DNA of 54,829 nucleotides, from the NCBI GenBank assembly GCA_943353835.1, contig CALRBA010000005.1, positions 1 to 54,829 of the forward strand. Reading direction: 5' to 3'. The first letter of the stretch is position 1. Every line of letters begins with the position of its first letter. The notes below the pieces were generated by a model. It made no database searches, was not told the origin of the DNA, and saw only the letters and a program-made list of their open reading frames with translations. The position numbers and the translations under genes are program-made. This document shows positions 1,664-37,044 of this stretch, in pieces. This stretch comes from Candidatus Nomurabacteria bacterium. GTDB lineage: Bacteria; Patescibacteriota; Minisyncoccia; Phycocordibacterales; Phycocordibacteraceae.

Positions 1664-2134
1664 ATGACACGAAATTTTTATATAGGACTTTTGGTGATTG
1701 TGATGGTAGGAGTAGGTGCAGTGTTTTTCTATAGGACACCAGTCCCGCCCTTTCTCCAAGAAAGAGCGGGAGAGTTTGGCGGAGTGTCCTTAAGAATTGA
1801 GTATGCGACAACGCCAGAGGCCAGAGAACGTGGACTCGGAGATCGGACTGAAATACAGAAAGACTACGGAATATTGTTTGTGTTTCCAAAAGATGATTAT
1901 TATGGCTTCTGGATGAAGAATATGCTCGTGCCGATTGATATCTTCTGGCTAAACGCTCAAGGACAGGTCGTCTATATCGCGAGCGATGTCGCGACGTCTA
2001 CCTATCCGAATGTCTTTTATCCGACCACTCCAGCGCGATATGTCCTTGAAACAGTCGCCGGCTTCGTGAGCGAGCATGATATTAAAGTTGGTTCGGAACT
2101 AATATTGAAAAAATTTCCAACTGTTTCGCAATAA
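1664..2134 (+). CDS. DUF192 family exported protein
   Basis: A 156-aa protein with one N-terminal membrane anchor (about residues 5-23) followed by a DUF192 domain: RIEYATTPEARERGLGDRTE, GILFVFPKDDYYGFWMKNM, VPIDIFWLNAQGQVVYI. The conserved FWMKNM and DIFW motifs are diagnostic. DUF192 proteins are small beta-rich extracytoplasmic proteins of unknown activity. The linker between the anchor and the domain (PPFLQERAG) is encoded by a 29-nt palindrome at 1743-1771 that also occurs inside rnpB, so the linker is probably repeat-derived. Confidence 0.9.
   Translation: MTRNFYIGLLVIVMVGVGAVFFYRTPVPPFLQERAGEFGGVSLRIEYATTPEARERGLGDRTEIQKDYGILFVFPKDDYYGFWMKNMLVPIDIFWLNAQGQVVYIASDVATSTYPNVFYPTTPARYVLETVAGFVSEHDIKVGSELILKKFPTVSQ
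1743..1771. repeat. 29-nt palindromic element inside the DUF192 gene
   Basis: Arms TCCCGCCCTTTCT and AGAAAGAGCGGGA around a CCA centre, with one mismatch. It matches the reverse complement of the 29-nt palindrome at 4799-4827 at 23 of 29 positions. Two arm differences are paired (C-G for T-A and T-A for G-C), which suggests the hairpin itself is conserved. It adds an in-frame linker to the protein. Confidence 0.65.
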
Positions 2135-2220
2135 CGCTGTCCACAGGGTGTTTTCTATATACAGGAGTAAACTTAATCTAAACGAATAACATTATTAATT
2201 TTCAAACACATCAACATACC

Positions 2221-4608
2221 ATGTCTAAGATTGCTAAAGCCCCAGTACGTTCAAAAGCGGTTGTTGCGCAAGTTCAGAAGGTTACGGAGCCTCCTATTTC
2301 TAAAGAAACTCGCAGATATCGCGAGATGATTCCTCAAGTAGAGAAGCGCGACGGACGACTCGTTGCATTTGATTTTGATAAAATTGCAACCGCTATTTGG
2401 AAGGCAATGGCAGTGGCGGAAGAGGGTAGCCAAGAAGATGCAGTGCTTGTGGCGCATCAAGTGGCGGGCGAGCTTGGACGATTCGCGAAGAAGTATAAGA
2501 GTTTCCTCCCGACTGTTGAAGGCCAGCAGGACTCTGTGGAGAAATATCTTATTTTGAACGACTATGTGAAGACAGCGAAAGCATATATTCTCTATCGCGA
2601 CAAGCGTGCACAGATGCGTGCGTCACACGTGGAGATTCCCGAGAGTGTAAAAAAACTTGCGAATGAGAGTAAAAAATATTTTGACGGCAACGCGCTCGGT
2701 GAATTCGTCTATCTGCGTACATATGCGAAATGGATTCCCGAAGAAAGGCGTCGTGAGACATGGGTAGAGACTGTTGATAGATATATGAGCTTCATGCATG
2801 AGAACCTCGGCGATAAGCTCACGAAAAAAGAGTATGCGGAAGTTCGTATGGGCATATTGAAACAGGAAGTGATGCCATCTATGCGTCTTATGCAGTTCTC
2901 TGGAGACGCGGCGCGCAGATGCAACGCATGTGGCTACAATTGTACCTTTACCGCGCCTGTTAAGCTGGAGGATTTCGCGGAAATTATGTATCTCTCTATG
3001 CAAGGGTGTGGTGTTGGTTTCGCCGTAGAGAGTCAAAATGTAGAACAGCTCCCGCAGATTATGAAACAGTTGGGTAAGATGTCACCGACATATGTTATTC
3101 CTGATTCAAAGGAAGGTTGGTGCGACGCTCTAACTCTCGGACTCACAACCTGGTATGCAGGGAAAGATATTACGTTTGATTTTTCAGAGATTCGTCCGGC
3201 CGGCGCGCGCTTGAAAATTATGGGAGGCAAGGCTTCGGGCCCAGAACCTCTGCAATCGCTTCTCGCCTTCACGCGCCAGAAAGTTCTCTCGCGACAAGGC
3301 CGTCGTCTGCGCGCAATTGATGTCCACGACATCACCTGCAAAATAGGCGAATGCGTAGTCGCCGGCGGCGTGCGTCGCACAGCGATGATATCGCTCTCTG
3401 ACCTTGACGACGTTGAGATGCGTGACGCCAAGAAAGGTCAATTCTTTATGACCGACCCACATCGTTCAGTAGCGAACAATTCTTCGGTGTATGAAACCAA
3501 GCCGACCAACACGGAGCTTATGGATGAATGGGTCGCCCTTATGAAGAGCGGGAGCGGAGAGAGAGGAATCTTCAATCGCGGGTCGCTCGCCGTCACTCTT
3601 CCATCACGGCGTGTTGAATATTTCAAAAAACTCGGATTCATCAGTGAAGATGGCGTGACGCAGGGTTCCATTGGGACTAATCCGTGTGCAGAGATAATCC
3701 TGCAGTCCAAACAGTTCTGCAATCTTTCAGAAGTTATTGCGCGCGCGAATGACACAGAAGCGTCGCTTCTGAAGAAGGCGCGTCTCGCTTCAATTCTCGG
3801 CACGTATCAATCAACTCTAACTAAGTTCGGTTATATATCTAAAGAGTGGACAGACCATTGCTCGGCGGAAAGACTTCTTGGAGTATCAATCACCGGACAG
3901 TGGGATTCTCCGGTCGCCCGCCTTGCAGAAGTGATGCGAAAGATTCGCGATGTTGCAGTTAAGACGAATATCACTTATGCAAAACGTTTCGGAGTTGAAC
4001 AATCTATGGCAGTGACGGCGGTAAAGCCATCAGGCACTGTCTCGCAGACATTCAACTGCGCTTCAGGTATCCACCCTCGTCACTCACCGTACTACATCCG
4101 CCGTGTGCGTATCAGCGCGACCGACTCTCTCTTTAAGATGATGCGCGACCAGGGAGTGCCGTATTATCCGGAAGTGGGGCAGTCTATGGAGGAGGCGAAT
4201 ACCTATGTTCTGGAATTTCCGGTGAAGGCCCCAGACCATTCTAAAGAAGCGCGTTTCAAGGATAATCTCTCGGCGTTGGAACAACTTGAATATTGGAAGA
4301 AGGTGAAATTGAATTTCACTGAACATAATCCGTCTGCGACCATCTCGGTAAGCGAGAACGAATGGATCGGAGTCGTAGATTGGATACAGAAGAACTGGGA
4401 TATCATAGGCGGGTTATCATTCCTGCCTAGAAGCAGTCATGTATATCGCCTCGCCCCATATGAAGAAATTACAAAAGAGGAATATGAGGACCGTATTGCT
4501 CGCTTCCCTAAAGTGGATTATTCCAAGCTATATGTCTATGAGCGACAGGACGAAACGGAGATGAAAAAGGAGCTAGCTTGCGCCGGAGGGACTTGTGAAA
4601 TAGAATAG
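2221..4608 (+). CDS. nrdJ: Adenosylcobalamin-dependent (class II) ribonucleoside-triphosphate reductase
   Basis: A 795-aa class II RNR of the monomeric RTPR type, making deoxyribonucleotides with B12. Residues about 38-135 form an ATP-cone-like regulatory region (VEKRDGRLVAFDFDKI). ACGYNCTFT and MQGCGVGFAVE mark the start of the catalytic barrel. NPCAEI (C489) and FCNLSEV (C500) are 11 residues apart, exactly like thiyl Cys408 and redox Cys419 of the Lactobacillus enzyme. The C-terminal pair C787/C792 (CAGGTC) matches its Cys731/Cys736 shuttle. All key cysteines are present. A glutaredoxin-like protein at 13.0 kb could re-reduce it (inference). The 86-nt upstream gap shows no riboswitch large enough for cobalamin binding. 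Confidence 0.97.
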   Translation: MSKIAKAPVRSKAVVAQVQKVTEPPISKETRRYREMIPQVEKRDGRLVAFDFDKIATAIWKAMAVAEEGSQEDAVLVAHQVAGELGRFAKKYKSFLPTVEGQQDSVEKYLILNDYVKTAKAYILYRDKRAQMRASHVEIPESVKKLANESKKYFDGNALGEFVYLRTYAKWIPEERRRETWVETVDRYMSFMHENLGDKLTKKEYAEVRMGILKQEVMPSMRLMQFSGDAARRCNACGYNCTFTAPVKLEDFAEIMYLSMQGCGVGFAVESQNVEQLPQIMKQLGKMSPTYVIPDSKEGWCDALTLGLTTWYAGKDITFDFSEIRPAGARLKIMGGKASGPEPLQSLLAFTRQKVLSRQGRRLRAIDVHDITCKIGECVVAGGVRRTAMISLSDLDDVEMRDAKKGQFFMTDPHRSVANNSSVYETKPTNTELMDEWVALMKSGSGERGIFNRGSLAVTLPSRRVEYFKKLGFISEDGVTQGSIGTNPCAEIILQSKQFCNLSEVIARANDTEASLLKKARLASILGTYQSTLTKFGYISKEWTDHCSAERLLGVSITGQWDSPVARLAEVMRKIRDVAVKTNITYAKRFGVEQSMAVTAVKPSGTVSQTFNCASGIHPRHSPYYIRRVRISATDSLFKMMRDQGVPYYPEVGQSMEEANTYVLEFPVKAPDHSKEARFKDNLSALEQLEYWKKVKLNFTEHNPSATISVSENEWIGVVDWIQKNWDIIGGLSFLPRSSHVYRLAPYEEITKEEYEDRIARFPKVDYSKLYVYERQDETEMKKELACAGGTCEIE

Positions 4609-4678
4609 ATTCACAAGTCTTATGCACCCCTTGGGGTACGACGAAGCGTCGCCTGCGAGATTGAATAAATACATAAAT

Positions 4679-4718
4679 GCGAAAACCTGCGCAGGAGCGC
4701 AGGTTTTCGCATCTTTTT
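4679..4718 (+). terminator. Intrinsic terminator after nrdJ
   Basis: A perfect 13-bp stem, GCGAAAACCTGCG / CGCAGGTTTTCGC, with a 6-nt loop and then ATCTTTTT. It ends just before the 3' end of the opposing rnpB gene, so it may also stop rnpB transcription from the other side. Confidence 0.9.
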
Positions 4719-5052
4719 GGACCCGGCCGATAAGCCGAATTCTGTCGTGGGTGATCATTTATCTGGGACGTTGGTTGCCCAACGCCTCGAGCGGCACTTC
4801 CCGCCTGTTCTTGTAGAACAGGCGGGACACGGCCTTGCACGGAGGTAAGGATTTAACCGTTTCATCTCGAGAGTTACCTCTCGACTCATCCAGTCAACGA
4901 CCGGATGCTTGTACACTTTCGCATCCAAGCGTCTCTGTTCGCACCTCGCGCCTTACGGCGTGTGGGAATTACCCACTACCATTCTGCCACATCGGCCCGT
5001 GTTCGGACTTTCCTCCCCATCACAGTGACAGAGCGATCGCCTAGCTAGGTCC
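4719..5052 (-). ncRNA. rnpB: RNase P RNA (class A)
   Basis: The catalytic RNA of RNase P, which matures tRNA 5' ends. Read on the minus strand it has the universal GAGGAAAGTCCGAACACGG near its 5' end, GGTAAATCC-like P10/11 sequence (GAAACGGTTAAATCC), and the 3' end GACAGAATTCGGCTTATCGG, all conserved bacterial RNase P landmarks. About 334 nt, normal for type A. The 5' end is set by a strong -10 box seven bases upstream. A variable helix is formed by a palindrome at 4799-4827 shared with the DUF192 gene. Confidence 0.95.
4799..4827. repeat. 29-nt palindrome forming a helix of RNase P RNA
   Basis: Perfect arms TCCCGCCTGTTC / GAACAGGCGGGA with a 5-nt loop. Its reverse complement aligns without gaps to the palindrome inside the DUF192 gene (1743-1771), 23 of 29 identical. 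It lies in a length-variable helix of the RNA, a tolerated site for extra sequence. Confidence 0.65.
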
Positions 5053-5091: not shown

Positions 5092-5766
5092 TTATGGAAT
5101 GTCTGAATTAGCGCAGTACTGACGCGCTTCTCGTAGCATTTTCTGTATTGTAACCGTACGCGCTACGGAAAGTATTTCCGCGTCCAAGATAGCTCTGGTC
5201 GGAGTATGTGCGCCGGCATGGGTACTCAAGCTTGAATACGGATATGCAGCTATGCGTTCTCCTAAGAACTGAGGGTCCACAACGTGGCTGACTTTCCATT
5301 TAGGCTCATAGAGCATTATGGGATTGCAGTGCACGTAGCTAATAAGATTTTGGAGGTAATTGTCTGCTGTAGACACATGGCGAGATTGGAATGGTTTGAG
5401 GAAAAGATTACCAACTCGCGCGTGTCGTGAGTTAAAGTATAGCGCGTACGCCGTTCCTATCTTTCGCATAAATGAAGTAATTCCTCCCTCCGAAACCTCT
5501 TTCAATACCAAATGGAAATGATTTGGCATCAGACAGAACGCACCGATGGCAACTAGTTTTTTACCACGAGGAATATTCATCACCTCTTCAAATTTGCGTA
5601 TGCCTATATCGTCACGCCTGAGAGGTAACTTGTCATTTGCCAAGTATAGAAGTTCCAAGAAGCGATGGTAATCTCTAGTATCTTCAAATGCGATGCGCTT
5701 CTCAATGCTACGATTATAGCAATGGTACCACTCACCTACGGTAAACGGAACTTTTCTATTTGTCAT
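5092..5766 (-). CDS. REP-associated tyrosine transposase (RAYT, Y1/HUH family)
   Basis: A 224-aa single-strand transposase related to IS200/IS605 TnpA. It has the N-terminal YHCYNRSIEKR motif typical of RAYTs, the HUH metal site MPNHFHLVL, and NYLQNLISYVHCNP, which holds the catalytic tyrosine. Such enzymes are domesticated or mobile and act on REP palindromes. Two inverted copies of a 16-nt palindrome lie 12 and 52 bp upstream of its start. It sits between the rnpB promoter and an unrelated membrane-protein gene. It differs from the second RAYT at 36.4 kb, so the two represent separate lineages. Full length and intact. Confidence 0.92.
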   Translation of the reverse strand: MTNRKVPFTVGEWYHCYNRSIEKRIAFEDTRDYHRFLELLYLANDKLPLRRDDIGIRKFEEVMNIPRGKKLVAIGAFCLMPNHFHLVLKEVSEGGITSFMRKIGTAYALYFNSRHARVGNLFLKPFQSRHVSTADNYLQNLISYVHCNPIMLYEPKWKVSHVVDPQFLGERIAAYPYSSLSTHAGAHTPTRAILDAEILSVARTVTIQKMLREARQYCANSDIP

Positions 5767-5777
5767 ATCATCAATTA

Positions 5778-5834
5778 TAAGGTGTCACCTTACGGAGTCA
5801 AGTAAATTATAAAAATAGTAAGGTGACACCTTAC
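5778..5834. repeat. Inverted doublet of TAAGGTG(T/A)CACCTTA palindromes
   Basis: Copy one TAAGGTGTCACCTTAC at 5778-5793; copy two GTAAGGTGACACCTTAC at 5818-5834 is its exact reverse complement. The 24-nt spacer is AT-rich. The REPIN-like arrangement next to a RAYT suggests these are that enzyme's target palindromes. No further copies were seen in this window. Confidence 0.8.
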
Positions 5835-32690: not shown

Positions 32691-32708
32691 GTCCCGCCAT
32701 GGCGGGAC
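32691..32708. repeat. 18-bp perfect palindrome in the S1 leader
   Basis: GTCCCGCCATGGCGGGAC. In the S1 mRNA it would fold 37 nt upstream of the start codon. Its arms resemble the outer arms of the TCCCGCC palindromes at 1743 and 4799. Confidence 0.7.
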
Positions 32709-36366: not shown

Positions 36367-37044
36367 ATGACACGCTCAATAATTATTGCTCCAGACGAGT
36401 TCTACCACGTCTATAACCGCGGTGTTGAAAAACGAAAGGTGTTTTTATCGCGCACGGATTACGACCGCTTTGTAGCACTTCTGTATCTTGCAAATCAGAC
36501 TGAGCCCGCCGATCTTAAATACCAAGGAAAATCATTTTCTGAAATCACAGAAAACCGAGCAGGTGAACCACTCGTTGCGATTGTTGCTTATTGCATGATG
36601 CCGAACCACTTTCATTTGTTGTTGCGCGAAGTGATTGATGGTGGGGTAGCTCGCTTTATGCAGAAGCTCACAACCGGCTACACGATGTATTTCAACAAGC
36701 GTAATGAACGAAGAGGCGCACTATTCGAGGGAACCTATAAGGCCAAGCACGCTGAGGAAGATCGGTATTTACGTTATTTGATTTCATATATTCATCTTAA
36801 TCCAGTAAAACTTTTGGACCGCGAATGGAAGACGAATGGAATACGAGATCGCGACGGCGCAGAGCGTTTCCTTGAGAAGTATGAATATTCTAGCTATCTC
36901 GATTATTTCTATTTCGACAAGATTCGACCGCAGAAGAAAATAATCGAACAAGAAATAGGACTCGAACTTTTTGAATCATCGGGAGATTTTAAGCAATGCA
37001 CCACAGAATGGCTTACTTACAGCACAGAACAGAACAAGGTTTAA
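36367..37044 (+). CDS. REP-associated tyrosine transposase (RAYT), second lineage
   Basis: A 225-aa Y1/HUH transposase. YHVYNRGVEKRKVFLS at the N-terminus, MPNHFHLLL metal site, LRYLISYIHLNPVKL with the catalytic tyrosine region. The last codons and stop (QNKV-stop) are made by the right-hand REP palindrome, so the gene and REPs behave as one unit. It is inserted between gyrA and a displaced gyrA tail. Five copies of its REP type occur in the window. Intact and probably active or recently active. Confidence 0.93.
   Translation: MTRSIIIAPDEFYHVYNRGVEKRKVFLSRTDYDRFVALLYLANQTEPADLKYQGKSFSEITENRAGEPLVAIVAYCMMPNHFHLLLREVIDGGVARFMQKLTTGYTMYFNKRNERRGALFEGTYKAKHAEEDRYLRYLISYIHLNPVKLLDREWKTNGIRDRDGAERFLEKYEYSSYLDYFYFDKIRPQKKIIEQEIGLELFESSGDFKQCTTEWLTYSTEQNKV

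Follow-up and report, generated by a model that had tools for sequence, protein, structure and literature searches.

A short palindromic repeat family probably shared by the RNase P RNA gene and a DUF192 gene in a Patescibacterium related to Candidatus Kaiserbacteria

The DNA analysed here (the window) is the 54,829-nucleotide contig CALRBA010000005.1 of assembly GCA_943353835.1 (Candidatus Nomurabacteria bacterium), part of a Patescibacterium genome of 534 kb in 13 contigs (G000), whose publicly named relatives are Candidatus Kaiserbacteria. Two genes of the window each contain a 29-nt palindrome, namely a gene for a membrane-anchored DUF192 (COG1430) protein at 1664-2134 on the plus strand (Pfam PF02643, E 8e-28) and rnpB, encoding class A RNase P RNA, at 4715-5052 on the minus strand (RF00010, 143.7 bits). 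Copy A (TCCCGCCCTTTCTCCAAGAAAGAGCGGGA, 1743-1771, no strand assigned) forms 12 of 13 pairs around a 3-nt loop and codes for VPPFLQERAG in the linker between the transmembrane segment and the domain of the DUF192 protein. Copy B (TCCCGCCTGTTCTTGTAGAACAGGCGGGA, 4799-4827, minus strand) forms all 13 pairs and is the P16/P17 arm of rnpB, lying at the place expected for P16 in the RF00010 alignment, on top of P15, in a part that is variable among relatives. All genomes compared below are drafts or metagenome-assembled genomes, and most of the statistics are uncorrected for kinship.

A sequence-only reading of this DNA had placed palindromes of one family at these positions in the two genes, matching at 23/29 in inverse orientation with paired arm changes. 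Both palindromes are there, and the match was confirmed: identity between A and B is 23/29 in inverse and 21/29 in the same orientation, and the arm changes at positions 8 and 9 have mirrored counterparts where these bases pair. Among random 13-bp palindromes, a fraction of 9e-6 match A at 23/29 or better. The single mismatched pair of A is C.A on the coding strand and G.U on the opposite strand, and B folds perfectly on the RNA strand (-23.5 kcal/mol, z -7.4). The common translation PP-F/V-LQE-R/Q-AG, also part of that reading, was recovered as PPFLQERAG for A and, on the rnpB strand, PPVLQEQAG for B.

The same reading had called for a search of the genome for palindromes of this type, and whole-genome patterns revealed two further copies, C (CCCCGCCCCTTCTCCAAGAAAGGGCGGGG), immediately 3' of the stop codon of a pilC-like gene, and D, 3' of a pilin gene. 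The genome thereby holds four family copies, and a shorter relative (CCCGCCCCTTTTACAAAAGGGGCGGG) was seen close to the C-terminal end of a SecA-like protein (named from its N-terminal sequence), in a linker, where it translates as EPAPFVKGAG in the same frame as PVPPFLQERAG of DUF192. A, B, C and D cluster together among 99 hairpins taken from 175 kb of the genome, with 4 pairs scoring >=9 against about 0.08 expected from column-shuffled hairpins. The window also contains, at 32691-32708, a short perfect palindrome (GTCCCGCCATGGCGGGAC) with the same outer arms as the A/B family.

A genus scan of 93 genomes with CCCGCCCTTTCTNCAAGAAAGRGCGGG, allowing up to 3 mismatches, detected 12 places in 7 genomes, and the reversed pattern used as control gave 0. 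In an alignment of 14 family members, 18 of 29 columns are invariant. The places include rnpB (G015 and G109), the pre-23S spacer at differing positions 68-156 nt upstream of 23S (G097 and G063), a spacer position near tRNA-Ile that is the same in G066 and G097, a 350-nt insertion within 23S and a terminator tip, between AAAAACAGC and GCTGTTTTT, both in G073, the regions upstream of rplC and rplJ in G109, and the pilC 3' end and DUF192 in G000. With the two pattern-source places left out, rnpB and the rRNA operon together account for 6 of 10 (p ~6e-5, even at an estimated share of 8.5% of non-coding DNA for the two). The carriers are scattered over the RNR tree (42 rows), which requires 7 label changes for 7 carriers, or 6-7 in bootstraps. 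In G038, from the same order, a 32-nt palindrome of the TCCCGCC..GGCGGGA type occurs six times over several contigs, which is another small family with the same outer arms.

A hairpin occupies the place of B in nearly all rnpB genes with a matchable P15, with a length of 4-39 bp and mostly unrelated sequence. According to the sequence-only reading, unrelated sequence in this helix throughout all related rnpB genes would indicate simple coincidence, and the unrelated P16 of most relatives, taken alone, would point that way. This refutation fails, however, on the P16 of G109 (ACCCGCCCTTTCTTCAAGAAAGAGCGGGT), which carries the DUF192 sequence: it matches A at 26/29 and shares its one mismatched pair. 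In the same gene, the P3 and P5/P7 hairpins are identical to each other and represent the B version (CCCGCCTGTTCT..AGAACAGGCGGG). The A version fills P3 in rnpB of G063, where the P5/P7 site holds a B-like one, and it also fills the P5/P7 site in rnpB of G015. These copies indicate that A and B are one family, which occupies three rnpB helices and a protein gene.

At least 7 of 93 genomes carry copies, which stand at unrelated loci, in three rnpB helices, rRNA spacers, leaders, terminators and, in frame, protein genes, with a preference for structured or tolerant sites. We consider it probable that A and B belong to a single family of small (27-29 bp), non-autonomous palindromic repeats, low in copy number, which spread within the Kaiserbacteria genus. 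The element might be copied as a hairpin, through single-stranded DNA and possibly also by template switching between hairpins, and might insert at sites to which one more hairpin does no harm. Within rnpB it would become a P3 or P5/P7 hairpin or P16, and in a protein gene it would survive only as an open, in-phase stretch within a loop or linker, as with VPPFLQERAG of DUF192 and the shorter EPAPFVKGAG relative of secA. A Y1 (RAYT-type) transposase acting in trans is a candidate mover. As to the earlier proposal of a mobile palindrome that can serve as a helix in rnpB and as codons of a linker, the dispersed copies support it, whereas active mobility and an equally good performance of the P16 helix are things we only infer.

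Several observations weigh against such a spreading family. The RAYT gene beside rnpB is flanked by its own pair of AAGGTGWCACCTT, which occurs nowhere else in the genome, and not by CCCGCC. Short GC hairpins of the TCCC..GGGA type are native to rnpB helices (TCCCGCC GCAA GGCGGGA in G103), so that convergence could account for some of the resemblance seen within rnpB. Each genome holds few copies (about 4-6), the RNR tree has poor resolution, and the closest relatives are only ~60-66% identical in DUF192. Neither a target-site duplication nor a clean empty site was found for A or B, the flanks being too diverged.

Of the competing explanations, the one that survives best dispenses with a transposase: template switching or short gene conversion at TCCC/GGGA microhomology would copy the palindrome mostly within rnpB, with occasional escape. 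In 78 rnpB genes, P3, P5/P7 and P16 share sequence (score >=12) in 11/234 comparisons within the same gene versus 24/18018 between different genes, a 37-fold excess (Fisher p 4e-13, kinship uncorrected). One and the same hairpin or longer palindromic element is present in two or three helices of one rnpB in L261 (G064), L252 (G076), L127 (G109), L135 (G111), L034 (G007), L191 (G066) and L245 (G094). In G064 a single 29-30 nt palindrome fills all three helices, while P3 and P16 of G076 share a 98-nt element (90% identical), whose end lies in the P5/P7 site; no copies of these elements were seen elsewhere in 73 kb of G064 and 160 kb of G076. Exchange within rnpB is well accounted for by template switching, but the family also reached unlinked loci (the rRNA spacer, the rplJ leader, secA and DUF192) without visible flanking homology, and as an explanation of the whole distribution we would accord this mechanism a real but minority chance. 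Given that the sampled stretches of G064 and G076 lack further copies, exchange within rnpB may be a separate process from the dispersal to other loci.

It can also be speculated, although we regard this as rather doubtful, that rnpB of Kaiserbacteria is a nursery or exchange site, in which palindromes are copied among P3, P5/P7 and P16 and from there reach rRNA loci, leaders and protein genes through an as yet undescribed mechanism of hairpin copying. If true, these three helices, though non-homologous, would be evolving in concert. That one hairpin recurs in two or three helices of a single ribozyme offers a directly testable case for the origin of RNA expansion helices, and it is also a warning that the variable helices of rnpB or rRNA spacers make poor phylogenetic markers in the Kaiserbacteria group. 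A longer element with ends like CCCAGCCCC[AC]...[GT]GGGGCTGGG was also observed to recur across different rnpB helices of different species, in P16 of L139 (G100), P5/P7 of L133 (G110), P3 of L032 and L247 (G022 and G002) and in L245 (G094).

A second alternative is a system of repetitive extragenic palindromic (REP) sequences, in which the RAYT next to rnpB would move the palindrome as single-stranded DNA. This RAYT-like Y1 transposase gene lies at 5092-5766 on the minus strand (PF01797, E 7e-6). Upstream of it are the palindromes TAAGGTGTCACCTTA at 5778-5792, probably its own site, which has only two copies in the genome and is conserved upstream of orthologs, and TAAGGTGACACCTTA at 5819-5833 (no strand assigned to either). 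The gene is syntenic with rnpB in a number of relatives and adjoins the invaded rnpB in both the window genome and G109, and orthologs (>=57% identity) are present in 5/7 carriers versus 12/86 other genomes (Fisher p 0.002, kinship uncorrected). The carriers G015 and G097, however, have distant RAYTs only, the element ends lack a GTAG or CGTC tag in the flanks of 15 copies, and the AAGGTGWCACCTT flanks of the RAYT differ from the family palindrome. We rejected the gene as the obvious partner of the A/B family owing to these differing flanks; it may be a resident, non-proliferating RAYT, and a REP/RAYT origin of the family seems unlikely to us.

Two further explanations are weaker still. A shared functional hairpin, such as a terminator, mRNA stabiliser or protein-binding site evolved or kept at each locus for its function, would agree with those copies that lie at gene 3' ends or in a terminator (pilC and pilin in G000; G073), but rnpB helices, rRNA spacers and coding linkers have no common function, copies are few per genome and locus occupancy is patchy across the genus, which makes this quite improbable. 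A terminator reading of A, B and C was likewise rejected, as no U run follows these hairpins, while one is present in a look-alike of G017 and in the G073 terminator copy. Coincidence, with P16 an ordinary variable helix and the DUF192 palindrome arisen by chance (GC-rich stem bases with AT-rich tips are common), is favoured by the unrelated P16 of most relatives and by TCCCGCC alone not being over-represented (33 seen, 30 expected), but it is contradicted by the 12 genus-wide matches against an empty control and opposed by the 9e-6 chance for A and B, the G109 P16 and the cross-helix matches in rnpB, and we hold it to be extremely improbable.

The same word count led us to discard a DNA-uptake or other short-word signal. 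Carriage by viruses was discarded as well, neither the A nor the B version being present in viral contigs; a 17-mer of the G076 rnpB element did match viral contigs, in unrelated context and with only ~19 bases agreeing.

With regard to known systems, the family is best read as resembling the Rickettsia palindromic elements (RPEs), though much shorter and in Patescibacteria, so that it works like an RPE with the size of a REP. RPEs have been reported in frame in protein genes, in intergenic DNA and in tmRNA and M1 RNA (summarised in PMC2229807). Shared with them are a palindrome repeated at several loci of one genome (4 copies plus secA), in-frame copies in protein genes (DUF192 and secA, and a second family in five open reading frames) and copies in RNA genes (P16 of rnpB here; P3, P5/P7 and P16 in relatives). 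RPEs are, however, 105-146 bp long, four to five times the 27-29 bp found here, and they belong to another phylum than the Kaiserbacteria, and we do not claim sequence kinship; three separate rnpB helices are used here, and rRNA spacers are frequent sites. REPs and REPINs are imperfect palindromes of 20-40 bp, often 3' of genes and sometimes inside them (PMC3733652), and are thus of comparable size, with a RAYT beside one copy here; apart from the missing tag and the RAYT flanks, they differ in being high-copy and mainly intergenic, as against about 4-6 copies per genome. The double-hairpin elements of fungal mitochondria are small and occur in intergenic DNA and rRNA genes (PMC10085805), whereas the element here is a single short hairpin, bacterial, in frame in protein genes and present in three rnpB helices. 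It also differs from the usual P16 of class A RNase P RNA in that the sequence of B is a dispersed repeat shared with other loci and not a locus-specific helix. A literature search, which did not cover subscription papers, found no account of such elements in Patescibacteria, or of one hairpin common to several rnpB helices.

In the DUF192 protein the linker is as long as in relatives, which implies that A took the place of a variable linker and was not simply added to it. Palindromes scoring >=9 were found in the DUF192 linker of 4/40 genomes, the window genome included, versus 72/2520 random windows, which is only suggestive of these linkers as a general palindrome hot spot. Other, unrelated palindromes of 11-13 bp were seen in the DUF192 linkers of L064 (G014), L065 (G008) and L072 (G005).

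A second, 27-nt palindrome family (ATGTCGGGACGTAGTACGTCCCGACAT) was revealed in G000, which was read to ~59% for this purpose. It lies in frame in trmD (L097:13104-13130), ligA (L096:4846-4872), dnaX (L095:7775-7803), murD (L301:5322-5348) and one further open reading frame (L302:11136-11162), and always reads MSG[R/S]ST[S/F]RH. Its copies coincide with alignment gaps, the proteins being ~15 residues longer than MurD of the PDB and DnaX of G064, with a few extra residues in TrmD and LigA compared with homologs (overall range 3-15). Its presence in five genes shows in-frame palindromes to be a pattern in this genome and not a single odd case. Protein-coding palindromes have previously been regarded as largely a Rickettsia peculiarity; here they are found in Patescibacteria with ultra-small genomes, at 27-29 bp and as two families in one genome, lying in essential genes (trmD, ligA, dnaX, murD and secA) as well as in the RNase P ribozyme. 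A perfect 50-nt palindrome (CGCAAAACAAGGTTCAATCCCGCTATAGCGGGATTGAACCTTGTTTTGCG) directly precedes the start of dnaX (L095:6762-6811), and palindromes of ACAAGGTT/AACCTTGT recur at position 37033 of the window and at L096:16327.

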